Assembly (NCBI GenBank): GCA_038561985.1 | Contig: CP073276.1 | Location: 1,054,001-1,118,000 of the forward strand | Source: Petrimonas sulfuriphila | Lineage (GTDB): Bacteria > Bacteroidota > Bacteroidia > Bacteroidales > Dysgonomonadaceae | Direction: 5' to 3' | Length of the DNA stretch: 64,000 bases | Notes under the pieces: model-generated | Told to the model about the DNA's origin: nothing | Database searches by the model: none | What the model saw: the letters and a program-made list of their open reading frames with translations, nothing else | Position numbers and translations under genes: made by a program | In this document: positions 12,660-29,874 of the stretch, piece by piece | Layout: every line of letters starts with the position of its first letter | Numbering within the stretch: the stretch's first letter is position 1

Positions 12660-14915
12660 TTACCTGTTGCTCAACATTACCCGATACACCTGTTTTCCCG
12701 AAGTTATTCTTCCAACATACAGGTGTTCCGGCTCCTTTTTCCCTTTAGCAAAAGTAATTTTTTTACCGTCGAGAAAAACCTCTCTGACCCGTTTACCGGA
12801 TTTAATCGGTAGATAGAGTTCTGCTTGGGTATTTGGCGGAATCTCTACCGACAACTCATATTCATCATTATTGATCGTCTTGTAAGTAAATAAAATGTTT
12901 CCTCTAATGGTGGGAACAGCAGATTCAACCGAAGTAAGGCTGTAAACATGCGGTTTAATTTCAATGCTCTCGAACCCTGGAGCAGATGGTTTAATACCAA
13001 CCACGTATCGGGCAATCGTGTTTGCAGGAACCGCTCCCCAAGCATGATTCCAGTCCAGGTTAGGTTTATATTTAATGTCCCAGGCTTCCAGCGCTACTGT
13101 TGAGCCTGATCGTATCATGTTGTACCAGCTCCTCTCACCGGTCGATGCCAGCAATTCCTCCGCGTACGCCCCATTACCACCGTTATACAAAGCATCCATC
13201 AGGAACTGAGCCCCGTAAACGCTGCACGCCATTCCTCTGGACTTGATAAAATCCTGCACTCCCTGGGAATGTTGTTGAGGAACTAACCCAAAAGCAAAGG
13301 CAAACATATTGGCATGCAATGATGTATGGCTGGTGGTATCGCCATCTGTATACAGTTTCCGTTTAAGATCAAAAAAAGTGTCGTTAAATAGTTTATAAAC
13401 CTCTTGATGTGCTTTGGCATAAAACAACCTGTCCTCCTGTTTATTCAATACTCGGGCAATCTGCTCCATTATTTTCAGGGCTTCGTAATAAAATGCATTT
13501 ACCACCGCGTTATGGTCACAGAAAACAAACCCGTCTCTTTCTTCCCCGGGCCAATCCACAATATCCTGTATGGGTTTATTGAAATTTATAGATTGAAGAA
13601 AAGCAGATGTTTGCAGGCCTGCAGTAGTGGAAATCAACCCCTTACTGGTTTTAAGTTGCATCAACGATCTGTTTTTCAGCAACGGATAATTCTTTTCCAG
13701 GGATCGAGCATCACCCGTATACATATAGTCATACCAAGCGATAAGTATAGCCTGCAAAATCCATTCGGTAGGCCAGGTGGGTTTTTTCAAGATATACTCC
13801 AGGGATTTACGTGCAATGGAATATTCCCTATCCACACTGTAATGACTTAGCTGATTGATAAGTATGTCTGCTTCATACGGGATACGTTCTCTGTCTCCAT
13901 CAACGTAAACTCCTGTGAATGAAGTTGCCTTCATCGTATACTTACTCATCTCCCAGATTTGATTCAGGGTATCATTATCGCAGCGGAAGAAGGAGGTTGA
14001 ATCATCGAATGGATAATGAACAGATTCCCTTATGACATCTTCTTTATCCAACTTATTGCCGTAATGCAGCACTTCCGCATAACGGAAAGGAACTACCTCG
14101 CCTATGTAAGCAGGCATTTTTACGGCAACTTCCAATGTGTTTCGTTTATCTTTATGCACTTTTATACGGTACAGGTGAGTACCTTTCAATAACGCCAAAG
14201 AGTAGGATTGATAACGAATGGTTCCTCCTGGCCGGGAGTCCACACGCCCATCCCGGACTTTCTCTCCCAGGTTTACGATAACCGTATCATTCCCGGTTTC
14301 AGACGTCAGTCTGACAAGCAATTGCCCGAAGGATGCCTTACCAAAGTCAAAAAACCAATTGTCATCGCGGGTCGAACACAGAACCGGATGTTCGACAGAC
14401 TTAACAAGAACCTCACTCGAAGATTGGTATGGCTTTAACTCATCTCCTGTTCTAAAAGATTTGATATCTGACCAATCGCTTTCTTCGCTATTGCCGGTTA
14501 TCGCCTTGACTCTCCAGTAGTACACTTTTCGTGGCTGCAACGACCTGCCCCGGTACGCAACGGAGACAGACCTGCCGGAGTTTACCGTCCCGCTATCCCA
14601 CACATTCCCTTCCCCTTTTTGAATAAGGTGCAAAGAGTCCGACAGAATAATCCTGTAACCGGATTGTAGCGTATTCTTCCCTTTGTTGGGAACAATCCAA
14701 CTGAACGATGGGTACTCCGAGAGGATTTTGGCTGTCTGAACAGGTTCAATGGCTGAATCGATCCCTTCATGATCCAGGGTAGAGGGATAACCATTGATAA
14801 AAACCTCCCCCGTATTTTTCAACAAATCCGTCATCAAACCCGTAGGTTTGTTTTGTGCATATGTACAGAAAATCACCAGCACAAAACACACCAGCAAGCA
14901 TCCTCGTCTTCTCAT
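12660..14915 (-). CDS. Alpha-L-rhamnosidase, GH78 family
   Basis: The 751-residue protein has a signal peptide (cleavage likely after CTYAQ) and an N-terminal beta domain with fibronectin-like YYWRVKAITGNSEESDWSDI at about 130-150. The (alpha/alpha)6 catalytic domain carries VDGDRERIPYEAD with the acidic active-site residues, WPTEWILQ and a C-terminal beta-sandwich (NTIARYVVGIKPSAPGFESIEI). GH78 enzymes release terminal alpha-L-rhamnose. It is the last gene of a minus-strand operon with two Gfo/Idh/MocA proteins and a tandem DUF1080 protein, so its product may feed or be processed by that oxidative system. Exported location is inferred from the signal. Confidence 0.88.
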   Translation of the reverse strand: MRRRGCLLVCFVLVIFCTYAQNKPTGLMTDLLKNTGEVFINGYPSTLDHEGIDSAIEPVQTAKILSEYPSFSWIVPNKGKNTLQSGYRIILSDSLHLIQKGEGNVWDSGTVNSGRSVSVAYRGRSLQPRKVYYWRVKAITGNSEESDWSDIKSFRTGDELKPYQSSSEVLVKSVEHPVLCSTRDDNWFFDFGKASFGQLLVRLTSETGNDTVIVNLGEKVRDGRVDSRPGGTIRYQSYSLALLKGTHLYRIKVHKDKRNTLEVAVKMPAYIGEVVPFRYAEVLHYGNKLDKEDVIRESVHYPFDDSTSFFRCDNDTLNQIWEMSKYTMKATSFTGVYVDGDRERIPYEADILINQLSHYSVDREYSIARKSLEYILKKPTWPTEWILQAILIAWYDYMYTGDARSLEKNYPLLKNRSLMQLKTSKGLISTTAGLQTSAFLQSINFNKPIQDIVDWPGEERDGFVFCDHNAVVNAFYYEALKIMEQIARVLNKQEDRLFYAKAHQEVYKLFNDTFFDLKRKLYTDGDTTSHTSLHANMFAFAFGLVPQQHSQGVQDFIKSRGMACSVYGAQFLMDALYNGGNGAYAEELLASTGERSWYNMIRSGSTVALEAWDIKYKPNLDWNHAWGAVPANTIARYVVGIKPSAPGFESIEIKPHVYSLTSVESAVPTIRGNILFTYKTINNDEYELSVEIPPNTQAELYLPIKSGKRVREVFLDGKKITFAKGKKEPEHLYVGRITSGKQVYRVMLSNR

Positions 14916-14936
14916 TTTAAATCCTGTTCTTTCTTC

Positions 14937-16307
14937 TTAGAGTTTGGGTAACTTCCAGGGTTCCCTATAATGGGCTTTAGCCAGCCGGTTCGCTTCCGGG
15001 TTATCAAAAGTGCCGGTTTCGTTATCCCAGTTCAGCGCTGATCCAACTCTACAAGAAATATTGGCCATATGGCTCAGCTTGGCTACTTCCGCCCCTATCG
15101 CAATATCGGCATTGGGCAACTGGCGTGAACGCATGCATTCCAGCATGTTTCCTGCATGCAGGTACAATCCTTTCCCTCCACCCGTTTTTTTCTCTACCGC
15201 CTCCATTCTCGGGGTGTTGGGCTTTCGCTCGTTGTCGCAAGGATAACAATAAGGAAAATTGCGGCTGTTAACCCCCTGTTCGGGCATCACCTCCCATCCT
15301 TGCCGGGTTAGGACAAGCGTACCGTTCTCTCCGAAGAAGGCGACCCCTTCGCGAAGCCCGAACAATCCATTACCAATGCCGCAGGCATGATCCCAGATAA
15401 TGTTGAAATCCGGATATTTATAGGTCGCCATAAGTGTATCGGGCGTCTCCATTGCATCATCGGGATAACCGAATTTCCCTCCGGCACCGTATACATACGA
15501 TGGCAATCCGACATTCATTCCCTTCATGGCATAGTCCAGCAAATGTACTCCCCAATCGGCCATCAATCCGCCGGCGTAATCCCAGAAAAAGCGAAAATTA
15601 TAGTGGAACCGGTTCTGATTATACGTTCGCTTCGGTGCAGGACCCAGCCACATGTCGTAGTCTACTCCAGCGGGAGGTGCCGAATCAGGCACCACCGGCA
15701 ACGTCCATTTGCTGGTTTGGTACGCCCAAACCTTAACGGTTCTCACTCGTCCCAGCTTCCCGCTCTGCACATAGGCAGCCGCCTCATCCCAGTGGGGATC
15801 GCTCCGCTGCCATTGTCCCACCTGTACAATCCGGTTATATTTCCGGGTAGCACGCACCATCAGGTCACACTCCTCCATGGTATTGGCAAGCGGCTTTTCC
15901 ACGTATACGTCTTTTCCGGTTTCGCAGGCGGCCACCAACTGAAGACAGTGCCAATGATCCGGTGTACCGATAATCACCATGTCTATATCTTTGTTGTCAA
16001 TCACCCGGCGCCAATCTTTAACCAGCTGAGGTGGTTTTTTTCCGGTTATTTTTTCTACGTCGGCAGCCCGTTGATAGAGCCACTGATCATCTACATCACA
16101 CAAGGAGATACATTCGGTCCCGGGGTAGTCGAGGAAAGTTTTCAAGTTGGCCCACCCCTGGTTACGGCAGCCAATGAGTCCGATTTTGATTTTATTCCCA
16201 GGCGCCGATTGTCCGAAAACGGATGAGTAGGATTTCCCTATTAAAGGATTCAGGCTTAGGCCGGTAACCGTAACGGCTGATCTCTTGAGAAAATTTCTTC
16301 GATCCAT
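14937..16307 (-). CDS. Exported Gfo/Idh/MocA family oxidoreductase
   Basis: The 456-residue protein starts MDRRNFLKRSAVTVTGLSL, a twin-Arg-like export signal. A Rossmann domain follows (IKIGLIGCRNQGWANLKTF, SLCDVDDQW). The catalytic-Lys motif is YVEKPLANTMEE, preceded by IIGTPDHWHCLQLVAACE. The C-terminal alpha/beta domain has the DWGVHLLDYAMKG block common to secreted members. These NAD(P)-dependent enzymes oxidise or reduce sugar hydroxyls; the substrate is unknown. An ATG five codons upstream would overlap the preceding gene by 8 bases and cannot be excluded. The order is Gfo, DUF1080, this gene, GH78. Confidence 0.9.
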   Translation of the reverse strand: MDRRNFLKRSAVTVTGLSLNPLIGKSYSSVFGQSAPGNKIKIGLIGCRNQGWANLKTFLDYPGTECISLCDVDDQWLYQRAADVEKITGKKPPQLVKDWRRVIDNKDIDMVIIGTPDHWHCLQLVAACETGKDVYVEKPLANTMEECDLMVRATRKYNRIVQVGQWQRSDPHWDEAAAYVQSGKLGRVRTVKVWAYQTSKWTLPVVPDSAPPAGVDYDMWLGPAPKRTYNQNRFHYNFRFFWDYAGGLMADWGVHLLDYAMKGMNVGLPSYVYGAGGKFGYPDDAMETPDTLMATYKYPDFNIIWDHACGIGNGLFGLREGVAFFGENGTLVLTRQGWEVMPEQGVNSRNFPYCYPCDNERKPNTPRMEAVEKKTGGGKGLYLHAGNMLECMRSRQLPNADIAIGAEVAKLSHMANISCRVGSALNWDNETGTFDNPEANRLAKAHYREPWKLPKL

Positions 16308-16314
16308 GATATTG

Positions 16315-17673
16315 TTATTCAAGTTCTTTAATCTTTATGTTCTGAAACCATACTTCATCGCCGTGATCCTGCAATAAGAGCAACCCCTCTTCTGCATTTC
16401 CGAAATCGGGCCAGTCTTTATACTTGCTGTAGTTTACCAACGCATCCCACATCTGGTTGTTGCGTTCATATTCAATAATTTTCACTCCGTTCAACCAGTG
16501 TTCTACGTGATTTCCCTTCACAACCACCATAGCCGTATTAAAGAAGCCGGGCCTGAAAGGTTTGTTATCGGGGGCTGCAATCAAGTCGTAAAGTGAACCA
16601 AGTGTCCTGTTTCCAGCAACACCTAATTTGGCATCGGGATGTTTTTTGTCATCCAATATTTGAAATTCGCAGCCGATGGCTGAACCTGCGCCTTTGTTCA
16701 GGTTTGTGTCCACAAAATACTTGATGCCACTGTTGGCACCTTCGGTAATCTTAAAGTCCACTTTCAACATAAAATTTTTATACGGGCGGGTGGTAACAAT
16801 ATCGCCACCGTTCGTAGATTCTCCTCCACCGCTTTTTTGAACTTTGAGGATTCCGTTATCGACTGACCAGCCTTTTTCGGGAAAATTATCGAGCTTTGCT
16901 CCTCGCCATCCGTTGGTAGTCTTTCCGTCCCACAACAGTTTCCATCCTTCACGTGCTTCTCGCTCGGAAATGGTATTGGCGATGGTATTTACTTGTTCTA
17001 TTCCGTCTGTGTTTTCACGCGACCTGAACTTATCGAGGTCCTGAGTCAGGATACGGATGTTTCTCCAGGAGACCGTTTTGCCTTCGAGTTGTTTGTTGTT
17101 TATTGAGTGGACCTGTAAGGCAATAAAACCCGATTTTGTGACGTCGTCCAATATATCGGCACAGGGGACACCGTTTACCCACGTGCGTATGGAGTTACCG
17201 ATTGCCTCTATGCGTGCTTTGTTCCACTGATTATGTTTAAAGGCTTTCTGTCCAATGGGATTGACAGTCATAGGATAAAGCCATCCTCTGCGTGCTTCAT
17301 CGTAAACGCCTCCCGTCCACGATCTGTCGGAAGGGTCAATCTCGAACTGATACCCGTGCACGCGTCCGTTTTGATACTCTTTCAAGCTATTGCTTCTAAA
17401 CTGAACTCCGGAGTTCAGTCCGTCGTCCACTTTAAAGTCAAATTCCAGGATAAAGTCGTCATACATCTTATTGGTAGCCAAGAATGTATTAGGCGTTCCG
17501 CTTTTTGAAATCCCGACAATGGCCTTCTCCTGAATTTTATATTCGGCTGTTCCGTTTAGTTTGGTCCACCCTTTCAGGTTCCTTCCGTTGAAGAGATCCT
17601 GCCATTTGGCTTCCTGAGCCGAAGCAGAAACAATAAAAACCGTTGCAATTAATACAAGAATATTCCTTTTCAT
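16315..17673 (-). CDS. Exported tandem DUF1080 (3-keto-disaccharide hydrolase-like) protein
   Basis: The 452-residue protein has a signal peptide (about residues 1-19) and two DUF1080 domains. The first (about 22-215) has [33 protein letters not shown] and [19 protein letters not shown]. The second (about 240-450) has [47 protein letters not shown] and the C-terminal [23 protein letters not shown]1080 is a concanavalin-like fold used by 3-keto-glycoside hydrolases. It lies between two Gfo/Idh/MocA genes with gaps of 7-15 bases, fitting a pathway of sugar oxidation followed by cleavage. Confidence 0.9.
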
Positions 17674-17686
17674 AGATTACTATTTT

Positions 17687-19108
17687 TTATATTTCATAAA
17701 AATGTTCCCATCCTTTTCGTGGAGGTGCCCCTGTCAGAAAAGCATCCGCAAAAACATCGTCAACAACCCGTTTTGTTTTTCGGTCAAAGACAATTCTCCG
17801 ATTCAGTCGCTGCACTGCTACCCCCAGACAGAACACCTGGCTCAGCGGGCCGGCAATCTCGAAGGGCGAGCGTGTTTTCTCTTCTCCCTGACAGGCCAAT
17901 AGGAAATTGGCGAAATGGTTCGACGGGCTTTTCGGAACAACGGGAAGCTTCCTCTCCATTTCCCGGGCTTTGTCATCCGGAATAATGCTTAACGTACTCC
18001 CGTGCGAACCACCCTTAAAAATCAGGTTTTTGCTGTAAATTTCCTTCCCCGGATTCAGCTTGGCCGGTTGAATTTTTCCGCCTCCAACACTGGGAATATT
18101 CGGATCAAGTTCAGAAACCCCATAACCTTCCGGAACGGGAGGAATGTTATCCACACCGTCGTACCACGTTATGACAACAGGCGGCATTTTTCCACGTTTT
18201 GGAAACTTAAATTCGATCGTGCTCGACATCGGAAAGAAGTATTCGTTGTGCTTGGAGAGTTTTACCGGATTCACCTCTTCCGGCAAACCCAGATCAAGAA
18301 ACTCGTGAGCCGTATCGAGGATATGCGCTCCCCAGTCGCCTAAAGCCCCCATTCCGAAATCGTACCAGCAACGCCATTGTCCATAGTGAAAGTCCTTGTT
18401 GTAATCGTGATACGACTGGGCCGACAACCAGGTGTCCCAATCCATTGTTTCCGGGATGGGCTCGGCACCAGGGAACTTCTTGATGTTCGGATCCCATCCG
18501 TGCCAGCGGCGGGCGTTGTTCATGTGCGCTGTAATGGCGGTAACATCTTTTATGATGCCGGCTTCTTTCCAGGCTTTGAACTGGAAATAATTACCTTCAG
18601 AATGTCCCTGGTTACCCATCTGCGTTACAACTTTTGGATACTTCCGGGCTGCTTTTATCATCAGTTCAACTTCGTTAAATGTGCGGCCCATAGGTTTTTC
18701 CACATAGACATGCTTTCCTTCTTTAATGGCTAGCATCACTGATGGGAAATGAGCAAAATCGGGAGTGGCGATGGCTACCGCCTCAAACTCGTTTCCGATT
18801 TTATCGAACATCTCTCTAAAATCCTTGAAACGTTTTGCGTTTGGAAATTTAGCCATGGCTTTTTGGGTGTGCTCGGCTCCTAAATCCACATCACAGAGGG
18901 CAACAACGTTTGCCAATTTTGTTTTATCAAAATCGTTGATAATCTCCCAACCTCTGTTTCCTATCCCGATGTGTGCCAGATTTACTTTTCGATTAGCCCC
19001 TACAATACGGCTGTAGCTAGCTGCATTGGTCTTGGTATAGATACCGCTTAACGCAATTCCCGCAGAGGCTAAAGCTGTATTTCTCAAGAAATCTCTTCTT
19101 GTCGTCAT
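17687..19108 (-). CDS. Exported Gfo/Idh/MocA family oxidoreductase, first gene of operon
   Basis: The 473-residue protein starts at MTTRRDFLRNTALASAGIAL (twin-Arg-like signal); the 13-codon upstream extension lies in the leader and lacks signal character. It has the Rossmann part (VNLAHIGIGNRGWEII, ALCDVDLG), AIATPDFAHFPSVMLAIKEG and VYVEKPMGRTFNEVE with the catalytic Lys. GMGALGDWGAHILDTAHEFL follows in the C-terminal domain. It reads from the consensus promoter at 19145-19176 and leads into DUF1080, a second Gfo and GH78. The two Gfo proteins of this operon are clearly different from each other, so they may act on different substrates or in opposite directions. Confidence 0.9.
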   Translation of the reverse strand: MTTRRDFLRNTALASAGIALSGIYTKTNAASYSRIVGANRKVNLAHIGIGNRGWEIINDFDKTKLANVVALCDVDLGAEHTQKAMAKFPNAKRFKDFREMFDKIGNEFEAVAIATPDFAHFPSVMLAIKEGKHVYVEKPMGRTFNEVELMIKAARKYPKVVTQMGNQGHSEGNYFQFKAWKEAGIIKDVTAITAHMNNARRWHGWDPNIKKFPGAEPIPETMDWDTWLSAQSYHDYNKDFHYGQWRCWYDFGMGALGDWGAHILDTAHEFLDLGLPEEVNPVKLSKHNEYFFPMSSTIEFKFPKRGKMPPVVITWYDGVDNIPPVPEGYGVSELDPNIPSVGGGKIQPAKLNPGKEIYSKNLIFKGGSHGSTLSIIPDDKAREMERKLPVVPKSPSNHFANFLLACQGEEKTRSPFEIAGPLSQVFCLGVAVQRLNRRIVFDRKTKRVVDDVFADAFLTGAPPRKGWEHFYEI

Positions 19109-19144
19109 AATATATATTCTAACGTATTTGTTTTTGTAGAAAAA

Positions 19145-19176
19145 CAAAAATATAAAAAAACGCCTTTTAAAGCAAA
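19145..19176 (-). promoter_or_regulatory. Promoter of the Gfo/DUF1080/GH78 operon
   Basis: On the minus strand TTTG (19173-19176), exactly 20 bases, then TATTTTTG (19145-19152). This is a full match to the Bacteroidota vegetative promoter. The -7 box ends 36 bases before the ATG of the first Gfo gene. I see no obvious operator or attenuator in the leader. Confidence 0.82.
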
Positions 19177-19211: not shown

Positions 19212-20498
19212 TCAATACTCAAACCGGTCCCTGTGCGCCCATAATCCCAAGGCGGGGCTTGAAATATAATATACCTCTTCCCCGTCCGGCAGGATGTTAA
19301 ATCCTTCTTTCAGGTGTTGGAAATTATATTTTTGCATCGTTTCATCGATATCTCCCCACCGAAAGCCCACACTTTCAATCTCTTCCCGTGTGAGGTTTTC
19401 TGCTCCTTTACCCGGACAATAGGTGATGGAAAACCTGCCTTCCGACGACCCGTGAATAAGATGTGCCGCGGCACCCAGATTATTCCTCAACTCTTCGTTA
19501 TCCTCAACTGCTTTTAATGTTTCAGGAGTTCCAAAATAACCGTATTTCCGGATCAACCGGTCTATCTCCTTATCCTCTCCGAATTCCTTTAATGCCGGCG
19601 CCAACACAACAAGCTCCCCTCCGTCGGCAATAGCCATTCGTGTTCTGTAAATGGATTTGTTTCCCAGCCAGGTGCTTTTGAACTCCGTGGGGTCTAACCA
19701 CACTACGACCTTCTTCAACGGTTTTTCAACCATTTGGAAATTAACCTCGAGAGAGAGCTTGGCAGCTACGTCAAAAACAGCGAAATCATCACCCACAAAC
19801 AGTCCGTAAGTCTGTTGTTTTCCTTCTTTGTTTACACCCACTACCGTGAGCACATACACAATAGGGAGTTGTTTTGCGAAATTTTCCGAAGCATAATTGA
19901 ATAGCCTGCGAACCGGGGTATCGGCACGTCCCATCATCCGCTCCATGCCATAGACCGCTCCCACATAATGGCTCTTGTTGATCGCTTCGAATCCACCGGT
20001 TCCCACAAAAACATTCTTGTTATAGTTTGCCATCCCCACTACTTCGTGCGGAACAACCTGTCCGATAGAAAGGATAAGATCGAAATTGCCCTCAACCAAC
20101 AACCTATTTACTTGAACCGGCCAATCGAAGTGTACTTTATACTCAGAAACCTCTTCCACAATTTCTGCCGAAACCCTACCAAGCGTTACCACATCGTTTC
20201 GCCAGTCGTGAATTCGTACCAAATTAGCCGGAGTTTTTCCGAACATGTGTGAGATCTGATCATCGGTCATGGGTGTATGCGTCCCCAACGCCGGAAGAAT
20301 ATCGGTTAGCCTGTCACCATAATATTCCCAGCTTATTTCTGTCAGTTCACCCGCACGGCTGGGCAGGCGAGTATAATCGGGCGGGATAGCCAGCACTTTA
20401 TGCTTTTCACCCAATTTACCGAAAGCCTCGCGAAGACCCGCCTCCAGGTCTTCGCGCGACAGGTTGTTTGTGGCAGAGCCGTTTTGATAATAAATCAT
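19212..20498 (-). CDS. LarA-family (DUF2088) nickel-pincer racemase/epimerase
   Basis: The 428-residue cytoplasmic protein, started at MIYYQNGSATNN, carries the LarA active-site pattern. This comprises PPDYTRLPSRAG (Asp41, Arg44), LGTHTPMTDDQI (His74) and VVPHEVVGMANYNK with His151 and Lys161. The Lys lies ten residues after the His, as the cofactor-attachment Lys does in lactate racemase. LarA homologues invert the alpha-carbon of hydroxyacids, including aldonic acids, using a nickel pincer nucleotide. No larB/C/E cofactor genes are in the window. It lies 16 bases behind gnd in an SDR-kinase-gnd-LarA operon, so a sugar-acid C2 epimerase fits better than lactate racemase. The next in-frame upstream start overlaps gnd. 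Confidence 0.85.
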   Translation of the reverse strand: MIYYQNGSATNNLSREDLEAGLREAFGKLGEKHKVLAIPPDYTRLPSRAGELTEISWEYYGDRLTDILPALGTHTPMTDDQISHMFGKTPANLVRIHDWRNDVVTLGRVSAEIVEEVSEYKVHFDWPVQVNRLLVEGNFDLILSIGQVVPHEVVGMANYNKNVFVGTGGFEAINKSHYVGAVYGMERMMGRADTPVRRLFNYASENFAKQLPIVYVLTVVGVNKEGKQQTYGLFVGDDFAVFDVAAKLSLEVNFQMVEKPLKKVVVWLDPTEFKSTWLGNKSIYRTRMAIADGGELVVLAPALKEFGEDKEIDRLIRKYGYFGTPETLKAVEDNEELRNNLGAAAHLIHGSSEGRFSITYCPGKGAENLTREEIESVGFRWGDIDETMQKYNFQHLKEGFNILPDGEEVYYISSPALGLWAHRDRFEY

Positions 20499-20514
20499 CT
20501 CTTCAGATTGAATA

Positions 20515-21969
20515 CTAAACTTGGTATGTGGACGAGGCGGTATTTCCTCCGCGACCTGTCCAGTCGGTATGGAAGAACTCACCGCGCGGTTTATCTACCC
20601 TCTCATACTGATGTGCTCCAAAATAATCACGCTGCGCCTGCAGCAGATTAGCCGGTAAGCGGTCGTTACGGAACCCGTCGAAATAGCACAAAGCCGATGT
20701 CAGTGCAGGAACAGGAATTCCGTTTTCGAGTGCAGTAGCGCACACCCTGCGCCAACTTTCCTGAACCGATTCGATACTTTCTTTGAAGAACGGATCGAGC
20801 AACAGATTTTCCAGCTTGGGATTATTGTCGAATGCTTTTTTGATGTCACCCAGAAATACCGAACGGATGATGCATCCTCCACGCCACATCAGCGCTATTC
20901 CTCCGTAATTGAGGTTCCAGTTATATTCTTTGGCAGCCTCCATCATCAGGTCGTACCCCTGTGCATACGAAATGATTTTCGCTCCGTAAATGGCCTGTTC
21001 GAGGTCGTTAATGAATTGTTGCCTGTCTCCTTTGAATGCCGGTTTTTTTCCTGCAATCACCTTCGATGCTTTTACACGAAGGTCTTTCTGAGCCGAAAGG
21101 CAGCGCGAAAACACGGACTCGCCGATAAGCGTAAGCGGGATTCCCAGATCGAGCGCCGTTACGGCTGTCCATTTCCCGGTACCTTTCTGTCCGGCCGTAT
21201 CGAGAATTTTTTCTACCAAAGGGCTCCCGTCTTCGTCTTTGTACGCCAGGATATCGGTGGTGATTTCAATAAGATACGAATCGAGTTTTCCGGCATTCCA
21301 TTTTTTAAACACTTCGTGTTGTTCAAAAGCATCCATCCCCAGTAATTCCTTCATCAGGTGATATGCCTCATTAATTATCTGCATGTCCCCGTATTCGATA
21401 CCGTTATGTACCATTTTCACGAAATGTCCGGCACCGTCTTCGCCTACCCAGTCGCAACACGGAGATCCATCCTCTACTTTTGCCGCTACCGCCTGAAAAA
21501 TTTCTTTTACGAAAGGCCATGCTTCCGGCGATCCGCCGGGCATCATCGAAGGCCCGAGCAATGCACCTTCTTCACCCCCGGAAACACCGGTACCTATGTA
21601 CAGTAATCCTTTACTTTCCACCTGTTTTGTACGGCGGACGGTATCCGGGAAATGGCTGTTTCCCCCATCAATAATAATATCTCCGGGTTCAAGGAGAGGA
21701 ATGAGTTGTTCAATGAAATCATCCACCGGCTTTCCGGCTTTTACCAACATCATTACCTTACGAGGGCGTTCGAGTGAATCCACCAATTCTTCAAGTGAAT
21801 GTGCCCCGATAAAATTCTTGCCTTTACCTCTGCCGCTCACAAAATTATCTACTTTTTCAACCGTGCGGTTATAAACGGCTACTGTGTAACCTTTACTTTC
21901 CATGTTCAGGACGAGGTTTTCGCCCATTACTGCAAGCCCAATGAGTCCAATATCTGCTTTTTGTTTCAT
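20515..21969 (-). CDS. gnd: 6-phosphogluconate dehydrogenase, decarboxylating
   Basis: The 484-residue enzyme converts 6-phosphogluconate to ribulose-5-phosphate and CO2 with NAD(P)+. Visible features are the dinucleotide fold IGLIGLAVMGENLVLNMESKG, IIDGGNSHFPDT, GVSGGEEGALLGPSMMPGG and the catalytic HFVKMVHNGIEYGDMQ. The long C-terminal helical domain ends with RDYFGAHQYERVDKPRGEFFHTDWTGRGG. Length matches the long (E. coli-like) type. It sits between a PfkB-family kinase (22 bases) and the LarA-type epimerase, so here it probably serves aldonate catabolism rather than only the general oxidative pentose pathway. Confidence 0.97.
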   Translation of the reverse strand: MKQKADIGLIGLAVMGENLVLNMESKGYTVAVYNRTVEKVDNFVSGRGKGKNFIGAHSLEELVDSLERPRKVMMLVKAGKPVDDFIEQLIPLLEPGDIIIDGGNSHFPDTVRRTKQVESKGLLYIGTGVSGGEEGALLGPSMMPGGSPEAWPFVKEIFQAVAAKVEDGSPCCDWVGEDGAGHFVKMVHNGIEYGDMQIINEAYHLMKELLGMDAFEQHEVFKKWNAGKLDSYLIEITTDILAYKDEDGSPLVEKILDTAGQKGTGKWTAVTALDLGIPLTLIGESVFSRCLSAQKDLRVKASKVIAGKKPAFKGDRQQFINDLEQAIYGAKIISYAQGYDLMMEAAKEYNWNLNYGGIALMWRGGCIIRSVFLGDIKKAFDNNPKLENLLLDPFFKESIESVQESWRRVCATALENGIPVPALTSALCYFDGFRNDRLPANLLQAQRDYFGAHQYERVDKPRGEFFHTDWTGRGGNTASSTYQV

Positions 21970-21991
21970 ATTATATTTTTGATTGGTTGTT

Positions 21992-23068
21992 TTATCGTTT
22001 CACCCGCGCATTTCCTTTCCAGATGCTCCAGATCATTTCTTCATCGGCAGGCTGGGCATAATCGGTGAGGAAAGTGGTGGCCAAAGCGCCACTGGCCCAC
22101 GCAAACTGGATCCACTTTTCAGACGGCATTTCCTTCAGAATACTATAGAGCAATCCACCCACGAAACCGTCACCCCCCCCAATACGATCCACCACGTTAA
22201 TCTTGCGCAACGGGGCAACGTGCCAGTTCTCATTTTCATAAACAATTGCTCCCCAAAGATGTTCATTGGCACTGATCACCTCCCGGAGCGTATTTGCAAA
22301 TACTGAAACGTTGGGAAATGCTTTTCTTGCATTCAAAATCATCCCTTTAAAGGCATCAATGGTGTCTTCAATATTTTCACCCCCTGCTTTCGGACCCTGG
22401 ACACCTAAACAGAGTTGAAAATCTTCCTCGTTTCCAATTAAGATATCCGACAGGGAAGCGATTTCAGCAAACGCCTCTTTCAACTCCTTTTCCCGGCCCT
22501 TCCAGAATGTTGCTCTGTGGTTCAGGTCAAAAGAGATAAGGGTGCCGTGTCTTTTGGCATAGCGGGCTAGCTGGAGGCAGAAATCACTTGTCTCGGGCGA
22601 TAAGGCAGCTATCAATCCCGACAAATGCATGATCTGAACTCCCTCTTTGGCAAAAATCCGTTCCAAATCAAAATCTTTCACGTTCAAGGTCTTTCCTACT
22701 TCCCCTGCCCTGTCGTTCTGGACACGGGGCCCACGTAATCCAAAACCACTATCGGCAATATTGAACTGGTGACGGTAACCCCACGGGCCTCCCTGCGGGA
22801 TCTCCGGCCCTTCGAAGTCAATGTCTCTTGCCCTCAGGTCGGATTTGATAAAAGCCGCAATCGGGCTGTCTTTTACAAAGGTAGTCAGCACCTTGACCGG
22901 AAGTCCGAGAGAAGATGAAATACTAGCCACATTTGTTTCGGCGCTCGTTGCCTGCATTTCGAAAATCTTGCTGCTATGTACCGGCTGGGCATTTACCGGT
23001 GTAATTCTCACTCCCATACTGGAAGCGACTATCAGTGAATACCTACATTCTCTTTTAAGTTGAAGCAT
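21992..23068 (-). CDS. PfkB-family sugar(-acid) kinase
   Basis: The 358-residue cytoplasmic kinase has the ribokinase-fold blocks SAETNVASISSSLGLPVKVLT, HLSGLIAALSP, ISFDLNHRATFW, ILIGNEEDF and the C-terminal VDRIGGGDGFVGGLLYS with the catalytic Asp at about residue 300. Overall it resembles 2-keto-3-deoxygluconate kinases. The N-terminal GG-x-NVA motif is altered to QATSAETNVA, so the substrate may differ from the textbook KDG. It lies between an SDR (23 bases upstream) and gnd. If gnd uses its product, the kinase would make 6-phosphogluconate. If it is a true KDG kinase, an aldolase must lie elsewhere. Confidence 0.85.
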   Translation of the reverse strand: MLQLKRECRYSLIVASSMGVRITPVNAQPVHSSKIFEMQATSAETNVASISSSLGLPVKVLTTFVKDSPIAAFIKSDLRARDIDFEGPEIPQGGPWGYRHQFNIADSGFGLRGPRVQNDRAGEVGKTLNVKDFDLERIFAKEGVQIMHLSGLIAALSPETSDFCLQLARYAKRHGTLISFDLNHRATFWKGREKELKEAFAEIASLSDILIGNEEDFQLCLGVQGPKAGGENIEDTIDAFKGMILNARKAFPNVSVFANTLREVISANEHLWGAIVYENENWHVAPLRKINVVDRIGGGDGFVGGLLYSILKEMPSEKWIQFAWASGALATTFLTDYAQPADEEMIWSIWKGNARVKR

Positions 23069-23091
23069 AATGGTGAAGAAGTTAAGTCTGT

Positions 23092-23904
23092 TTAAATACT
23101 AAAGGCATCAAAACCGCCATCCACAATAGCAACGGTACCGGTAACAAACCTAGAAGCATCGCTCACCAGATAGTGTAGCGTACCAAGTAGATCTGCCGGA
23201 TTGCCGAAACGTCTGAAAGGAGTATGGGCAATTATGGTATTTCCTCTATCGGAATAAGTCCCGTCAGGATTAGTAAGCAGGTTTCTGTTCTGTTCAGTAA
23301 TGAAAAATCCCGGACAAAGTGCATTTACACGGAAATCTTCACCAAACTTAATAGCCAGTTCACCGGCCATGTATTTGGTAAAGTTGGTAACAGCTGCTTT
23401 TGCTGCGCCGTATCCGGCCACACGTGATAACGGACGCAACGCCGAAGCGGATGAAATATTGATGATGTTTCCCTTTTTCTCTTTCACCATATATTCGGCG
23501 AAGATAACTGTCGGAACAACAGTTCCCATCAGGTTCAGGTCTACCACCTTACGGAAATCATCCATTTTCAAATCGAAGATGGTGTTTTTCGGTCCTATAG
23601 TGGCACCGGGCATATTGCCTCCCGCTCCGTTAATAAGGGCATCTATTTTACCGTATCTGGCAATGATCGCCTCTGCGTTTTGCCTTAATACTGCCTCATC
23701 AGTCACATCGGTTTGAAGGAACAACGCATCTCCACCCTTTGATCTTACATGCTCAATCTGCTCGTCCCCCTTTTCTTTGTTCCGGGCCAATACGGCTACC
23801 TTCGCTCCGTGCAAAGCCAAGTACTCCACCATCGATGCGCCCAAAACGCCTGTTCCGCCGGTAACAACAATTACTTTGCCTTGAATGTTAAATAGTTCGT
23901 ACAT
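23092..23904 (-). CDS. SDR family oxidoreductase (sugar-acid type)
   Basis: The 270-residue classical short-chain dehydrogenase has the cofactor loop VTGGTGVLGAS (Gly16-Gly22), NGAGGNMPGAT in place of the NNAG block, INISSASALRPL with the catalytic Ser, and GYGAAKAAVTNFTKYMA with Tyr-x-x-x-Lys. It ends CPGFFITEQ...TGTVAIVDGGFDAFSI. Related Bacteroidota and Thermotoga proteins act on fructuronate/mannonate or keto-gluconate. It is the first gene of a four-gene operon. A LacI-type operator candidate lies 36 bases before its ATG (23941-23956). The substrate is inferred, not seen. Confidence 0.88.
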   Translation of the reverse strand: MYELFNIQGKVIVVTGGTGVLGASMVEYLALHGAKVAVLARNKEKGDEQIEHVRSKGGDALFLQTDVTDEAVLRQNAEAIIARYGKIDALINGAGGNMPGATIGPKNTIFDLKMDDFRKVVDLNLMGTVVPTVIFAEYMVKEKKGNIINISSASALRPLSRVAGYGAAKAAVTNFTKYMAGELAIKFGEDFRVNALCPGFFITEQNRNLLTNPDGTYSDRGNTIIAHTPFRRFGNPADLLGTLHYLVSDASRFVTGTVAIVDGGFDAFSI

Positions 23905-23956: not shown

Positions 23957-24056
23957 AGTTAACACTATCTTCGGTAAAGTACAAATAATATCCCGTGTTT
24001 TTTATTTTTCAAAAAAACACATCCAACTTACGAGATTACGAATCGGAAGATTTTCT

Positions 24057-25778
24057 TTATTGATATCCCGGATTCTGCGGAAAATCACCACTGATGTTTA
24101 GATCAATCTGCTCCTGCGGTATGGGAAGCAACACGTGATAATCCTGAATATTCAGTCCCGGAGTAAGCGGATTATTGTTGTATTTCCGGACTCGTTCAAC
24201 AAGCTTTCCCGTCCTGCGCAACACATAAAAACGGCACTCTTCCTGGTACAATTCACGGGCGCGTTCATCCAGCAGGTAATCGATATCCACCTCATCCACT
24301 GTGGCGGGTGTGGCCTTGGCCCTGTTGCGTATGACATTGATATCTGCCAACGCCTTTTCTTTCTGCCCGGTCTGGATATACGCTTCTGCCCGGAACAGGT
24401 AGGTTTCGGCCAGCCGCATGGCATATATGTCCTTGTAAGAAGCCCCGTTTCCCGATGTGGCCGGATTTTCAAGGACATTGCAGGGATCATAGAATTTTAA
24501 AAAGAACGGATAAATATATTGACACGTGTCTCGGATCGGGTCACGCCCCGCGCTTGGCGGGTACAGGCTGAAATCGATTCGTTGGCCATGATAGGCGGAC
24601 TCGGGATTATCGAAGTAGAAATCACGCTTCACCATGTGTTTGGCATTCCGGATATCCTTGTCGAAATCCTTTCCCCACACGATATGCGTCATATAGTAGG
24701 TCGGCCGTATCCAGGACACCCCTCTTCCCAGGGAATCGGAATAACCCGTGTATTTACCGTCTATCAGCTCACCCCGAAACGCTTTTTTGCCGTCGGGGGT
24801 GTTCCCCATTCTGAAATAGGCCGGCCCCCAGGCACGCCCCCCGCGGTTGTTGCTCCCTCCGATAACTCCCGGTTCATCAAACTGGATTGACCAGATATTT
24901 TCCGTGTTTTCGGCCAGGTTCTGGTTGTTGGCCGCAAACAGGTCATAGAAAACATCTCCCGTGCCCCATACAGAGTTTCCGGCGCTGCCGAAGCGGTTGG
25001 TCATCAGTTTGTATCCCATGTTATCGATCAGCCGGGTTGACGACTGTATCGCTTCATCGTATTTACCCTCCATCAGGTATATCTCGGTAAGGAGATGCAA
25101 TGCCGCACCTTTGGTAATACGGCCGGGACTCTCTTCTTTACCCCTGTCGGGGAGGAAAGACACGGCTTTTGTCAGGTCCTCCTCCATCAATTTGAAGGCA
25201 TCGGCTTTCGGCTGCCGTACATAGTCCGTCTTAAACTCGTTGGTCACCTCCGTGACAACGGGAACGTCCCCGTAATTAGACACCAGGTGACGGTAACACC
25301 ACGCGCGAAAAAACAATGCTTCACCGGAAAACTCATCTTTCTTTGTCGGCGTGGACCAGTTAATATCCGATTTGTCTATGTATTCCAGAATCAGGTTCGC
25401 ACGCTGAATGATACGGAACGGGCGACGCCACCACTCCCTGACAATTAGGTTGGTGGATGTGAAGTAATTCACGTAATTGCTTACAAACTTCGTGCTGTTC
25501 GGATCCTCTCCGTGAAAGGCAACATCGGTGCCAAGCCCTTTATAGGTACTGCTGTGCTCCTGTATCTCTTCGCCAAAAAAGAAATCGTTGCGGACAGACC
25601 AATGAAGCCCGTTAATTCCTTGCCGTAGACCGGCTTCCGTGTTGTATGCATTTTCCGGGGCAAGGAAGTCCATCGGCTTCTCCTCCAGGAATGCGCTGTC
25701 GTTGCACGACCCCCATGTCAAGGGGATAACCAGCAGCAGGCAAAAAATAATATTTTTATAATCAATAGAAGTCTTCAT
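24057..25778 (-). CDS. SusD/RagB family nutrient-binding outer-membrane lipoprotein
   Basis: The 573-residue protein has a lipoprotein signal (IIFCLLLVIPLTWGSC, lipid-modified Cys at about 24). The all-helical SusD fold follows (LEEKPMDFLAPENAYNTEAGLRQGINGLHW at the front). Tetratricopeptide-like parts include AALHLLTEIYLMEGKYDEAIQ and LAETYLFRAEAYIQTGQKEKALADINVIRNRA. The end LLPIPQEQIDLNISGDFPQNPGY is typical. It caps the adjacent SusC channel on the cell surface and captures the ligand. SusC lies 17 bases upstream. The following SDR operon has its own operator but the same strand, so this pair probably imports the substrate of the sugar-acid pathway. Confidence 0.94.
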   Translation of the reverse strand: MKTSIDYKNIIFCLLLVIPLTWGSCNDSAFLEEKPMDFLAPENAYNTEAGLRQGINGLHWSVRNDFFFGEEIQEHSSTYKGLGTDVAFHGEDPNSTKFVSNYVNYFTSTNLIVREWWRRPFRIIQRANLILEYIDKSDINWSTPTKKDEFSGEALFFRAWCYRHLVSNYGDVPVVTEVTNEFKTDYVRQPKADAFKLMEEDLTKAVSFLPDRGKEESPGRITKGAALHLLTEIYLMEGKYDEAIQSSTRLIDNMGYKLMTNRFGSAGNSVWGTGDVFYDLFAANNQNLAENTENIWSIQFDEPGVIGGSNNRGGRAWGPAYFRMGNTPDGKKAFRGELIDGKYTGYSDSLGRGVSWIRPTYYMTHIVWGKDFDKDIRNAKHMVKRDFYFDNPESAYHGQRIDFSLYPPSAGRDPIRDTCQYIYPFFLKFYDPCNVLENPATSGNGASYKDIYAMRLAETYLFRAEAYIQTGQKEKALADINVIRNRAKATPATVDEVDIDYLLDERARELYQEECRFYVLRRTGKLVERVRKYNNNPLTPGLNIQDYHVLLPIPQEQIDLNISGDFPQNPGYQ

Positions 25779-25795
25779 AATAAATATTTTTTATG

Positions 25796-28700
25796 TTAAA
25801 AAGCAAATTTGATTCCCACGACAATGTTACGGGTATTGGGCCTGAATTTTCTGTTGTCCGCGTCGTCGGCAAGTTCAGGGTCCCATCCCTGCCATTTGGT
25901 CCAGGTATAAAGATTCTTTCCCGATACGTAAAGCTGTAAATAATCAAAACCTCCGAATGACTTTAACAAATCCGGACTGCATTTGTACATCAGGGATATA
26001 TCTTGCAGGCGGACAAAAGACCGGCTCTGGTATATGGCTCCGGATTGCGGCTGCGAGTTATAGATTCCGGTGGCATTGCCCACGCCGTTATCGGGAGTCC
26101 AGTATTGACGTATGGCGGGCTGATTAACCCGGTATACATCGTCCGACCGCGACGACACGTTCAGGAACTCGGCGTTGTTCAGCATGTAATACCCGTTACC
26201 GCCCTGGATGGAGTTCAGCATGAAATAGAGCGACCAGCTTTTGTAAGCCAGGGTATTGCTTAAGCTGAAACGAAAGTTCGGTGATTTATAACCTACGATC
26301 TTGCGGTCATTATCCGGATCGATGATCCCGTCGCCGTTTACATCTTCATATTTCCATTGTCCGGGGCGCCATCCGGGATATATCTGCCCGGGAGTCCATC
26401 CCATCTCCTCCGGAGTCATGTTGCTCTGTTCGGTATATGTCTTCGAAAACAGGTCTTCTTCCGTCCAGATACCTGTGATATGGTAGTTGTACAACGATTG
26501 GATGGGCTGTCCCACGAACCAGGAGTTTCCGATATCCTTATCGTTCTTGCCGCCGTATAATTTGGAAATCTTATCCCGGTTCAACGAGAAAGTGAACGTT
26601 GAATTCCAGCTGAAATTTTTAGTTTCAATGTTTGAGGATCTCAGTTCAAGGTCCACCCCTTTCGTTTTCACATGTCCGATATTGGTCCACCCCTGCTCGT
26701 ACCCGGAGGAGTACGGAAGCTTCCTCCTCACCAGCACATTGGACGTTTCGGAAGTATAGAGATCCAGTGATCCGGAAATCCTCCGGTTCCGGAGCAACCC
26801 GAAATCGATGCCGAGATTGAACGATGATGTTTTCTCCCATGCCAATGACGCATTCCCCAGTTGATCAAAATTAGGAAAAACCCCTACTCCGGTGGTTTTA
26901 TCAAAGACGTAGTTGTCGCTCGACATCTTGGAAAGGCTTGTGTACCGTCCCGCCCCCTGGTTGCCGTTCTGTCCGTAAGAAAGCCTGAACTTCAGGTAAA
27001 GCGATTTCAGGTTTTCCATGAATTGCTCTTCCGAAGCAATCCAGCCTAAGGAAAACGACGGCAGGTCAACGTACTTCGAGTTTGCTCCAAAACCCGAAAA
27101 TCCGTCTCGCCGTATTGTCGCCGTAGCCATATAACGGTTTCTAAACGTATAATTCAGGCGCCCCATATAAGACACTCCGGTTTCCTGCCACTTCTCATTG
27201 TTGCCGGTACTGAGGATGGTTCCGAAGGCCATCTGGTAATATCCCAATGCCTCGTTATCGAATCCCTCGGAAGTAAAACGAAACCTTTCGCCCATCGACT
27301 TTTCACGGCTGTACAGAAGCGTCGCATTGATACTGTGCTCATCAAATGAGCGTAGGTAAGTAATTATGTTGTTAAAAATCCAACTCCTTTGCTCTTCGGG
27401 GATTTTTTCAGCTTTACCCTTGTTGGCGGCACCGTCATGCATCGACGCCGGGTAAAACGAATTGTTTTTCCGGTTCCAATACGTGTTTGAATAGTTAAAA
27501 TCGTAAGACAACCCTTTTACGAACGGAACATCCATCCTTGTATTGGCCACGAGAAAAAGAGAGTTTCGGATATCTTCATTTTTAATTTTTGTCCATCCCA
27601 GGGGATGCGGCATGTAGTTTTCGCCCGTCAGGTAAACAACGTATTTATCCGGAGACTCCAGATCGTTGTTTGCCAGAGGGCTGGCGTTGCGGACATCCAC
27701 AAAGGCGGGCTCCCTACCGGAATAGTCCTGATAAGAATAATTGACGTTGAACCCCACGGACATCCAGTCCGTTATTTTTCCGTCCACCTTCGAATTGAAC
27801 GTCAGGCGGTCCCACTGATCATTGACAATAATTCCTTCTTCTCCGGTGTATGAGCCGGAGATATAGTAATTCACCTTGTTTGTGCTTCCGGAATAACTCA
27901 CGTCGTAGTTCTGGATCACCGGCTTGTCGCGCATAACCACATCGAACCAGTCGATATTGTTGCCGGCCTTGTAGTTCTCCATTTCTTCCCGGGTCCTCAA
28001 ATAGGAAGCCACAACTTCCCTGTCGGAAGCGTCCGGACGTACAGGCTTGCTTGAAATTTCATCCGATCCCTTTGCATATTTGCCGTACCAATTGTAGAGG
28101 TTTTGTTGGTAATAATAATCCAGCATCCGCAACGCATATTGGTTGCCATTCATGTATTTCACCGGATGGTTGGTTTCGAATTGCGTCCCGTAGTAAGCAT
28201 TGACCGTAATTTTCGGTTTTTCGCTTCTTCCTTTTTTAGTGGTTATGATGATAACACCGTTGGCCGACCGGGAGCCGTAAACGGCGGCGGCGCTGGCGTC
28301 CTTCAGCACGTCGATATATTCGATATCGCTTACGTTGATATCGTTCAGCCTTCCGTTGAAGATGATGCCGTCCAGCACGATAAGAGGTGATTTGCTGGCC
28401 GACAATGTGGTTTGTCCGCGGATGGATATGTCCGCATCTCCTCCGGCCATCCCCCGGCTTGAAAGGTTGACCCCTGCCATTGTCCCAGACAGTGCCTGAG
28501 ATAAGTTCATGTTCGGCAGGGAAGTTTTGTCGTCCAGTGTCACTCGGCTTACAGCTCCGGTCAGGTCACTTTTTTTCATGGTTCCGTAACCCACCACAAC
28601 CAGTTCGTCCAGGGCCTGCGTATCTTCCTGCAGGGTTATCGTGACGGTTGTTTGTCCTACGGTGTTGACTTCCTGTGTGAGGTAGCCAATGTAAGAGATC

Positions 28701-28996
28701 TGGAGTATACCGTCGTTTTCCAAGGTGAGGGAAAAGCCTCCGTTGTTGTCGGTCACCGTTCCGTTCGTCGTGCCTTTTTCTATGATATTGGCTCCGATGA
28801 CGGCCTCCCCTTTTGCATCCGTAACTATACCTGCAATCTGCCTTTTCTGCTGTTGTATGTTAAAAGACGGTTGCGATTCCGGGAAATAGTCGTCGGCAAA
28901 ACTGTCAAATGTGTTCAACAATGCCAAAATAAAAACGAATAAGATGGTCGAGGATAACCCTACCCTCTTCCACCGGAGTAATTTAATGATTTTCAT
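25796..28996 (-). CDS. SusC/RagA family TonB-dependent outer-membrane transporter
   Basis: The 1066-residue protein has a signal peptide, then a carboxypeptidase-regulatory-like domain (about 52-125, GIVTDAKGEAVIGANIIEKG). The TonB box/plug follows (LDELVVVGYGTMKKSDLTGAVSRV; DISIRGQTTLSASKSPLIVLDG; DVLKDASAAAVYGSRSANGVI) and then a 22-stranded barrel. There is no STN domain, so it is not a FecA-type signalling receptor. That agrees with control by the neighbouring LacI-type regulator instead of an ECF sigma factor. Its final strand ends in Phe (NIVVGIKFAF). An operator candidate lies 264 bases before its ATG. Confidence 0.95.
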   Translation of the reverse strand: MKIIKLLRWKRVGLSSTILFVFILALLNTFDSFADDYFPESQPSFNIQQQKRQIAGIVTDAKGEAVIGANIIEKGTTNGTVTDNNGGFSLTLENDGILQISYIGYLTQEVNTVGQTTVTITLQEDTQALDELVVVGYGTMKKSDLTGAVSRVTLDDKTSLPNMNLSQALSGTMAGVNLSSRGMAGGDADISIRGQTTLSASKSPLIVLDGIIFNGRLNDINVSDIEYIDVLKDASAAAVYGSRSANGVIIITTKKGRSEKPKITVNAYYGTQFETNHPVKYMNGNQYALRMLDYYYQQNLYNWYGKYAKGSDEISSKPVRPDASDREVVASYLRTREEMENYKAGNNIDWFDVVMRDKPVIQNYDVSYSGSTNKVNYYISGSYTGEEGIIVNDQWDRLTFNSKVDGKITDWMSVGFNVNYSYQDYSGREPAFVDVRNASPLANNDLESPDKYVVYLTGENYMPHPLGWTKIKNEDIRNSLFLVANTRMDVPFVKGLSYDFNYSNTYWNRKNNSFYPASMHDGAANKGKAEKIPEEQRSWIFNNIITYLRSFDEHSINATLLYSREKSMGERFRFTSEGFDNEALGYYQMAFGTILSTGNNEKWQETGVSYMGRLNYTFRNRYMATATIRRDGFSGFGANSKYVDLPSFSLGWIASEEQFMENLKSLYLKFRLSYGQNGNQGAGRYTSLSKMSSDNYVFDKTTGVGVFPNFDQLGNASLAWEKTSSFNLGIDFGLLRNRRISGSLDLYTSETSNVLVRRKLPYSSGYEQGWTNIGHVKTKGVDLELRSSNIETKNFSWNSTFTFSLNRDKISKLYGGKNDKDIGNSWFVGQPIQSLYNYHITGIWTEEDLFSKTYTEQSNMTPEEMGWTPGQIYPGWRPGQWKYEDVNGDGIIDPDNDRKIVGYKSPNFRFSLSNTLAYKSWSLYFMLNSIQGGNGYYMLNNAEFLNVSSRSDDVYRVNQPAIRQYWTPDNGVGNATGIYNSQPQSGAIYQSRSFVRLQDISLMYKCSPDLLKSFGGFDYLQLYVSGKNLYTWTKWQGWDPELADDADNRKFRPNTRNIVVGIKFAF

Positions 28997-29260
28997 TGTC
29001 TTATTTATATAGTTAACGTTTAAAATACATATTCCCGTGATTCAGGGATTTTAAAGATTTAGAAAATTTAAAAAGATTGAACGGAGCCAATCAAGCGCAG
29101 AAAAGGAAAACTCCCTTCTTCCACAATTTGGTTTTATTTTTATTCATCATAGGCGAATTATTTTAAATGGTTTTGATTATGCACAGCTATTAACCAAAGT
29201 CGTTTTTCCAGAAATACAAAAAAACCAAAAACTTGGACGATCTATTTGTCAAACCTCATT

Positions 29261-29276
29261 TTGTCTACGTACACAA
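29261..29276. promoter_or_regulatory. LacI-type operator candidate 2, before susC
   Basis: TTGTCTACGTACACAA is a 16-bp inverted repeat with one mismatched pair around a central ACGT. A weak -7-like TACATTGT on the minus strand overlaps it, so binding would block transcription toward susC. Confidence 0.72.
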
Positions 29277-29463
29277 TGTAAAATCAATGAAAAAATCGGT
29301 GTTTTTAAAGCATTTTATTTATTAGAGAACAACAATCACAAAAACAAACAATGTGACTCTAAGTTTGAGAATTCCCGGCTCCATGTTAATTTAATCTGTT
29401 TCTAACCGGTAAGACAGTCGCCTTTTTCCGGGTGCGTAGCAACGATATTTCAACATGAAGAAT

Positions 29464-29840: not shown

Positions 29841-29874
29841 TGATTTAAAACAATAAGAAGATTACAGTATCTCA

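Follow-up and report, generated by a model that had tools for sequence, protein, structure and literature searches.

A Petrimonas operon with a LarA-type epimerase as the probable lower half of a hexuronate shunt, in Bacteroidales with and without the known nickel-pincer cofactor genes

Introduction

The closest described counterpart of the system studied here is the UxaR-regulated pectin locus of Thermotoga maritima, gnd-uxaE-uxaD-gntE-gntK, in which UxaE, Gnd, a LarA-type epimerase, UxaD and a kinase are given as required for galacturonate catabolism (PMC3750489). The corresponding route has been proposed for Thermotoga (Rodionova 2012, as cited in PMC6978723 and PMC3750489) and the Thermotoga epimerase has been assayed (Desguin 2020, PMC7583248). 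Here we analyze a similar operon from the anaerobic bacterium Petrimonas sulfuriphila, encoding a short-chain dehydrogenase/reductase (SDR), a PfkB-family kinase, 6-phosphogluconate dehydrogenase (Gnd) and a LarA homologue, in a stretch of 64,000 nucleotides (GCA_038561985.1, contig CP073276.1, positions 1,054,001 to 1,118,000), hereafter the window. The operon probably provides the later steps of a shunt that leads hexuronates into the pentose phosphate pathway. What we describe is a Bacteroidota version of the route proposed for Thermotoga, and the idea of the route itself is not new.

The two systems differ in several respects. The kinase slot is filled by GntK in T. maritima and by a PfkB protein in the window, and the T. 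maritima genome, which served as a control, contains LarB, LarC and LarE as well as a member of the 2-keto-3-deoxy-6-phosphogluconate (KDPG) aldolase family, unlike the window genome. The window LarA belongs to NF052594 (group 18), whereas Thermotoga GntE2 belongs to group 20 (PMC7583248). The D-gluconate 2-epimerases GntE1, GntE2 and LarAH15 resemble the window LarA in their catalytic and nickel-pincer nucleotide (NPN) residues and, at two of four places and probably at all, in their signature residues. Unlike these assayed enzymes, with members of groups 19 and 20 among those tested, group 18 has been assigned hexonate epimerization as a hypothesis (Desguin 2020, PMC7583248), and no NPN synthesis genes were found in the window genome.

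Two further routes invite comparison. In the galacturonate-phosphoketolase route of Lactobacillus suebicus mannonate likewise reaches 6-phosphogluconate and ribulose-5-phosphate, but the kinase acts before the epimerase and the steps have not been assigned to genes (PMC6978723). The canonical isomerase pathway (UxuA, KdgK, KdgA) shares UxaC and fructuronate reduction with our proposal and differs in its KDPG aldolase, a family unmatched in the window genome. Pectin yields galacturonate. Petrimonas is described as specialized on pectin (PMC7768429).

Operon layout and gene families

The window genome is a single contig of 3.83 Mb, 100% complete, and conspecific with Petrimonas sp. IBARAKI (G049). 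On its minus strand the genes follow one another in the order SDR, PfkB, Gnd and LarA with intergenic gaps of 23, 22 and 16 bases, which bears out the single operon with gaps of 16-23 bases claimed by an earlier sequence-only reading, provided that LarA starts at the ATG at 20498. The listed open reading frame starts with a GTG at 20582 and overlaps Gnd. The conserved start is the ATG, giving a protein of 428 amino acids whose residues 1-428 align throughout with near relatives.

23092..23904, minus strand: oxidoreductase of the SDR type, predicted to reduce fructuronate (mannonate oxidoreductase; PRK08277)
21992..23068, minus strand: sugar-acid kinase of the PfkB family, predicted to act on gluconate (or mannonate) (PF00294)
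20515..21969, minus strand: 6-phosphogluconate dehydrogenase, decarboxylating (Gnd; TIGR00873)
19212..20498, minus strand: LarA homologue of the group-18 type, predicted to epimerize D-mannonate/D-gluconate at C2 (NF052594, PDB 4nar match)

The LarA homologue matches NF052594, 'nickel-dependent putative hexonate epimerase', over its full length with 648 bits (cut-off 500), and its best PDB match is 4nar (GntE2, E 4e-31). The catalytic and NPN-binding residues of LarA in reference numbering are D72, R75, H108, H174, K184, H200 and K298 (PMC7583248); by motif and 4nar alignment they correspond to D41, R44, H74, H151, K161, H177 and K281 of the window protein. None of these seven varies among 100 aligned rows, of which 98 represent the window's subtype and two a subtype with 45% identity; some genomes contribute two rows, from named and unnamed loci. 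The same holds for all 63 rows of a second alignment, comprising 31 from genomes without the cofactor genes (NPN-minus, counting G052, which has LarB and LarE) and 32 from genomes with them (NPN-plus). His74, His151 and Lys161, to which the sequence-only reading had pointed, are therefore present in the ATG numbering and conserved.

At four places the usual residues of gluconate epimerases are E, V, A and H (PMC11770544). E152 and V153 directly follow the catalytic His151 in 100/100 and 63/63 rows; A345 (99/100 and 61/63) and H346 (100/100 and 63/63) are placed only by the sequence alignment with 4nar. At the position of LarA W358 GntE2 has N348 according to PMC7583248, where the window's candidate is A345. 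By alignment, then, the window LarA appears to carry the gluconate-epimerase signature, of which the A345/H346 part is likely.

As for its partners, the SDR falls into the PRK08277 subfamily 'D-mannonate oxidoreductase' (362 bits, cut-off 281); its PDB relatives include 4wuv with 175 bits and, after it, 1vl8, a 'gluconate 5-dehydrogenase', with 113 bits. Gnd matches TIGR00873 with 759 bits (cut-off 427) as well as both Pfam domains and aligns with PDB 5uq9 across 480 residues. Gnd sets the end point of the predicted chain, 6-phosphogluconate, and mannonate differs from gluconate only in its configuration at C2.

Recurrence of the module in Bacteroidales

Gene content was compared in 80 named loci, which are the best-matching 80 among at least 576 relatives. 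The full set of four is present in 57 loci, several loci being truncated by contig ends, and 24 show the exact order of the window, so the same four-gene order, which the sequence-only reading had suggested seeking in other Bacteroidota, does recur. The named loci also contain UxaC (31), UxaE (39), PdxB (41), a separate KdgK (17), KdgA (12) and UxuA (8). At E 1e-40 or better a LarA homologue was found in 55 of 101 family genomes: G040 and G084 have only a subtype 45-46% identical to the window's, and the remaining 53 have the window's subtype, as contig-end fragments in G086 and G097 and with an internal stop in G098. In an order sample of 392 Bacteroidales genomes with a completeness of 90% or more, 59 contain LarA at E 1e-60, G433 only as a 47% subtype. 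The 56 loci inspected in this sample (the window's own and that of G092 not being among them, and G433 and second loci being excluded) include SDR in 48, Gnd in 46 and UxaC and UxaE in 27 each. The four-gene grouping is confirmed as not due to chance, and the module recurs patchily across the Bacteroidales.

Several features of these loci stand apart from the four genes. A PdxB-type protein (4-phosphoerythronate dehydrogenase, NF001309, 452 bits) lies near LarA and Gnd and often between them, for example at L121:12440-13567. Gnd is known to be inhibited by 4-phosphoerythronate, and the PdxB-type protein may clear this side product. Genes for four-helix bundles are found between PfkB and LarA (L121:9578-9946, TIGR02436; L127:9507-9875), a cluster seen in 13/80 named loci. 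Two records labeled Chromatiales (L090) and Xanthomonadales (L110) contain LarA proteins that share 76% and 73% identity, respectively, with the window LarA; this reflects either mis-binning or transfer.

A predicted hexuronate shunt

About 1.5 Mb from the operon, at 2.62 Mb, the window genome encodes UxaC followed by UxaE (PF16257, 193 bits) and a major facilitator superfamily (MFS) protein. The matching place in the sister species P. mucosa (G041) reads UxaC-KdgK-KdgA-MFS, and a UxuA protein lies near its LarA operon. The window genome has UxaE in place of the sister's KdgK-KdgA, and both have kept the LarA operon (L221 vs L228). A search for the KDPG aldolase family (PF01081), which the sequence-only reading had proposed as a check, gave 0 matches in the window genome, other aldolase families not being sought, while 8 of 14 control genomes matched, including Bacteroides ihuae.

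From these genes we infer the following route. Galacturonate or glucuronate would be imported by the MFS carrier and isomerized by UxaC, and UxaE would convert tagaturonate to fructuronate. The SDR would reduce fructuronate to D-mannonate, the LarA homologue would turn mannonate into D-gluconate by epimerization at C2, phosphorylation of gluconate by the PfkB kinase would give 6-phosphogluconate, and Gnd would decarboxylate the latter to ribulose-5-phosphate. In the window genome, with the KDPG aldolase family unmatched, this shunt would replace the route via 2-keto-3-deoxygluconate (KDG) and KDPG aldolase. We favor it because the four family calls, the GntE signature, the UxaC-UxaE-MFS set and the missing KDPG aldolase match all fit. 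The substrate chain of the sequence-only reading thus gains support from context and sequence, through the same observations and a distinct kinase; its bypass of KDPG aldolase agrees with the absence of PF01081 matches but is not new, having been proposed for Thermotoga.

Several observations weigh against this route. The PfkB kinase was found in just 25/56 order-sample loci, and the closest solved relatives of the window kinase are KDG kinases (2afb nearest, 109 bits). UxaC occurs in 86/101 family genomes and so in many without this LarA; conversely, G040 has the operon and no UxaC match, and its substrate may differ. In the literature consulted, as far as it was accessible, we found no assay of a group-18 member, and profile searches of the window genome did not find larB, larC or larE.

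The kinase matches the PfkB Pfam model PF00294 with 86 bits (cut-off 26), and 0 of 15 NCBIfam matches reach their own cut-offs. Two KDG-kinase models give 93 and 55 bits against cut-offs of 440 and 400, which the presumed KdgK proteins of relatives also miss (217 and 212 bits). We compared 99 distinct operon-type kinases with 21 KdgK proteins from the same loci and P. mucosa. R120, R185 and D300 are invariant in both groups, which differ at many positions invariant within each, such as N versus Y at 103 and 118, residues that we take to touch the substrate in KdgK. The window kinase appears to belong to a different subfamily from the KdgK present in some relatives; from context alone, its substrate would be gluconate or mannonate. 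It could instead be an ordinary KDG kinase, mannonate passing via UxuA to KDG and an aldolase, and LarA and Gnd serving another purpose. Its best sequence matches are indeed KDG kinases, and UxuA is present in 8/80 named loci and near the P. mucosa operon, yet the window genome shows no match to the KDPG aldolase family, a presumed true KdgK occurs separately in 17/80 named loci, and the groups differ by N for Y at 103 and 118. We consider this explanation highly improbable.

The main rival to the proposed shunt is that phosphorylation comes first, PfkB being a mannonate kinase and LarA epimerizing 6-phosphomannonate to 6-phosphogluconate. Gene content fits this order equally well, and both activities were shown in extracts of galacturonate-grown L. 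suebicus, where they were not assigned to genes (PMC6978723). It is nevertheless unlikely, as the assayed GntE enzymes act on free mannonate and gluconate (PMC7583248) and the window LarA appears to share their signature.

The place of the kinase is occupied differently in some loci. In L164 (9042-11382) it holds a pair of proteins, one of the pyrophosphate-dependent phosphofructokinase type (363 bits against a cut-off of 273) and the other a HAD protein, and a class II aldolase follows Gnd. By gene listing alone, pairs of similar size stand at this place in L183, L186 and other loci; the HAD protein of the L186 pair matches HAD_2, and the HAD proteins of L186 and L183 have no NCBIfam match.

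Distribution of the cofactor genes LarB, LarC and LarE

The sequence-only reading had called the route nickel dependent and had named missing nickel-pincer genes as a finding that would refute it. Profile searches of the window genome did not recover larB, larC or larE, and nickel dependence as worded there is not supported. The best weak LarE-like and LarB-like matches of this genome are GuaA and PurE, beyond which two weaker LarE-like matches were seen. LarC (PF01969) was matched in 0/101 family genomes compared with 6/14 controls, and LarE (TIGR00268) and LarB (NF033503) were above cut-off in the same 3/101, namely G040, G052 and G084.

In the order sample LarE was above cut-off in 48/392 genomes, 34 of which belong to the 59 with this LarA and 14 to the remaining 333 (odds ratio 31, Fisher p 5e-22, uncorrected for kinship). 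LarC and LarB were searched here in the 59 LarA genomes plus G040, G052 and G084. Among the 59, LarB, LarC and LarE are all present in 34 and all absent in the other 25. LarC and LarB pass weakly in G226 and G464 (75 and 74 bits; 186 and 187 bits). The single-contig genomes G049 and G041 contain no LarC and no LarB or LarE above cut-off, and the single-contig G475 none of the three. At 3 of the 4 LarBCE places inspected NikR was found.

These absences could be artifacts of search sensitivity or of incomplete genomes. The LarE and LarB searches also match paralogues weakly, so distant versions could hide; the control Corynebacterium glutamicum has LarB and LarC with LarE below cut-off, and the weak LarC and LarB scores of G226 and G464 point the same way. 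Three models behaving in an all-or-none manner across 59 genomes make this explanation quite improbable, as do the complete single-contig window genome, whose two inspected weak matches are GuaA and PurE, and the three single-contig genomes named above.

The pattern is scattered on the LarA tree. With 63 sequences (57 of the 59 plus six more of the family, G433 and the G323 fragment being excluded), the NPN label changes 9 times, at least 5 changes being forced by starred branches, versus 21 when shuffled (quick method). Two genomes of the same genus, G254, which has LarBCE, and G475, which has none of these genes, are sisters on this tree. The LarA proteins themselves offered two explanations that we rejected. 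No residue change was found in NPN-minus LarA at the eleven positions compared, and a second LarA homologue is not the general reason for LarBCE in NPN-plus genomes, since 24/34 show one Lar_N match (in G433 the 47% subtype), as does each of the 25 NPN-minus genomes; the Lar_N model scores this subgroup weakly (24-57 bits), and further divergent LarA proteins could escape it.

LarA evolves under purifying selection. In three pairs of NPN-minus Petrimonas genomes its ratio of nonsynonymous to synonymous substitution (dN/dS) is 0.024-0.050, and the same comparison gave 0.018-0.023 for Gnd, 0.021-0.033 for PfkB and 0.026 and 0.049 for SDR; for pairs at greater distance, saturation of the synonymous sites precluded an estimate.

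A further arrangement is found in G040, whose operon reads SDR-PfkB-LarA-LarE-LarB-Gnd-Gfo-PF06439-rhamnosidase. Its LarA is 45% identical to the window's, yet matches NF052594 with 586 bits. G052 and G084 have the same LarA-LarE-LarB set in different surroundings (L050, L051 and L216 being the loci of G052, G040 and G084), and LarC was not found in G040, G052 and G084 (87% complete). In these three genomes LarE and LarB accompany one LarA subtype, with no LarC match; nickel insertion would then proceed in another way, or the cofactor would be the metal-free pincer. LarA proteins of 46-47% identity are also present in G349 and G433, genomes with LarBCE.

LarBCE might be dispensable if the LarA of this group needed no NPN, or used a nickel-free or different cofactor. 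The 25 of 59 LarA genomes with none of the three genes, each with one Lar_N match, and the three LarA-LarE-LarB genomes without a LarC match would fit. We regard this as doubtful, given that none of the seven NPN and catalytic residues varies across the 31 NPN-minus and the 32 NPN-plus rows, that LarE co-occurs strongly with this LarA (kinship uncorrected), and that by the weakly scoring Lar_N model one protein is the only visible user of the cofactor in 24/34 NPN-plus genomes.

The association with LarE and the untouched site argue for NPN use, and the repeated all-or-none absence of LarBCE together with purifying selection on LarA argues for outside supply or a new route of synthesis. We lean towards a conserved nickel-pincer epimerase that works in the catabolism of many Bacteroidales unable to make NPN by the known genes. 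The window LarA, with its full NPN site, would then obtain its cofactor without LarB, LarC and LarE. This cofactor may be shared and scavenged (an auxotrophy, as with B12) or come from a second biosynthetic route, or else LarA chemistry may run without NPN. Scavenging appears most likely in our analysis, because scattered loss of the whole pathway with the user retained resembles vitamin auxotrophy. A literature search found no published case of LarA without LarBCE in the accessible text, and a prior report is possible; the reverse, LarBCE without LarA, is mentioned in PMC11796402.

Surroundings of the operon

29875..30948, plus strand: LacI-family regulator (PF00356 and PF13407), divergent neighbor of SDR in IBARAKI and other relatives
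29682..29713, no strand: perfect 12-base inverted repeat with 8-base spacer, operator-like, within the segment that IBARAKI is without
23966..29870, minus strand: SusC and SusD segment, adjoining but outside the conserved module (blastn vs IBARAKI, L032)
17687..19147, minus strand: Gfo/Idh/MocA dehydrogenase, downstream on the same strand (PF01408; in 20/80 named loci)
16315..17673, minus strand: 3-keto-disaccharide hydrolase family protein, downstream (PF06439; in 22/80 named loci)
12660..16322, minus strand: second Gfo/Idh/MocA protein and alpha-L-rhamnosidase-like protein (Bac_rhamnosid6H), ending the same-strand run

The sequence-only reading had placed both SusCD and a LacI-type regulator beside the operon; in IBARAKI and other relatives the regulator keeps this place. 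In a blastn comparison of window positions 11001-34000 with the closed IBARAKI genome (L032), identity is 99.2% up to ~23965 and 98.1% again from ~29871. A segment of 5.9 kb that contains SusC and SusD and separates the LacI gene from SDR in the window has no counterpart, and in IBARAKI the LacI gene lies directly upstream of SDR, 217 bases away. LacI is likewise beside SDR in L033 and L034 (91-93% relatives), and in P. mucosa (L035) different SusC and SusD homologues, less closely related, are found nearby. The conserved module does not include SusCD, and SusCD says little about the module's substrate, because conspecific IBARAKI is without it at that place; a uronate substrate deduced from SusCD was dropped for the same reason.

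The inverted repeat sits upstream of the LacI gene within the SusCD segment, and no exact copy of its 7-base arms was found in 228 loci. A link by this repeat between the operon and the UxaC-UxaE locus was rejected, as the one match with 3 mismatches in L221 was equaled by 15/200 shuffles. Downstream, the set at 12660-19147 (two Gfo/Idh proteins, PF06439 and the rhamnosidase-like protein) recalls the 3-keto-glycoside route of Bacteroides; an NCBIfam BT_2158 family match in this set scores 269 bits, below the cut-off of 750.

Implications

The proposed shunt places a kinase and a LarA subgroup into a defined sugar-acid route of pectin-degrading Bacteroidota. The same genomes form a clean test case for NPN supply, in that related genomes with the same enzyme and a similar operon have either the whole LarBCE set or none of it. 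If NPN is scavenged, it would be an organometallic cofactor supplied by the community; if it is not, the biochemistry of LarA would need revision.

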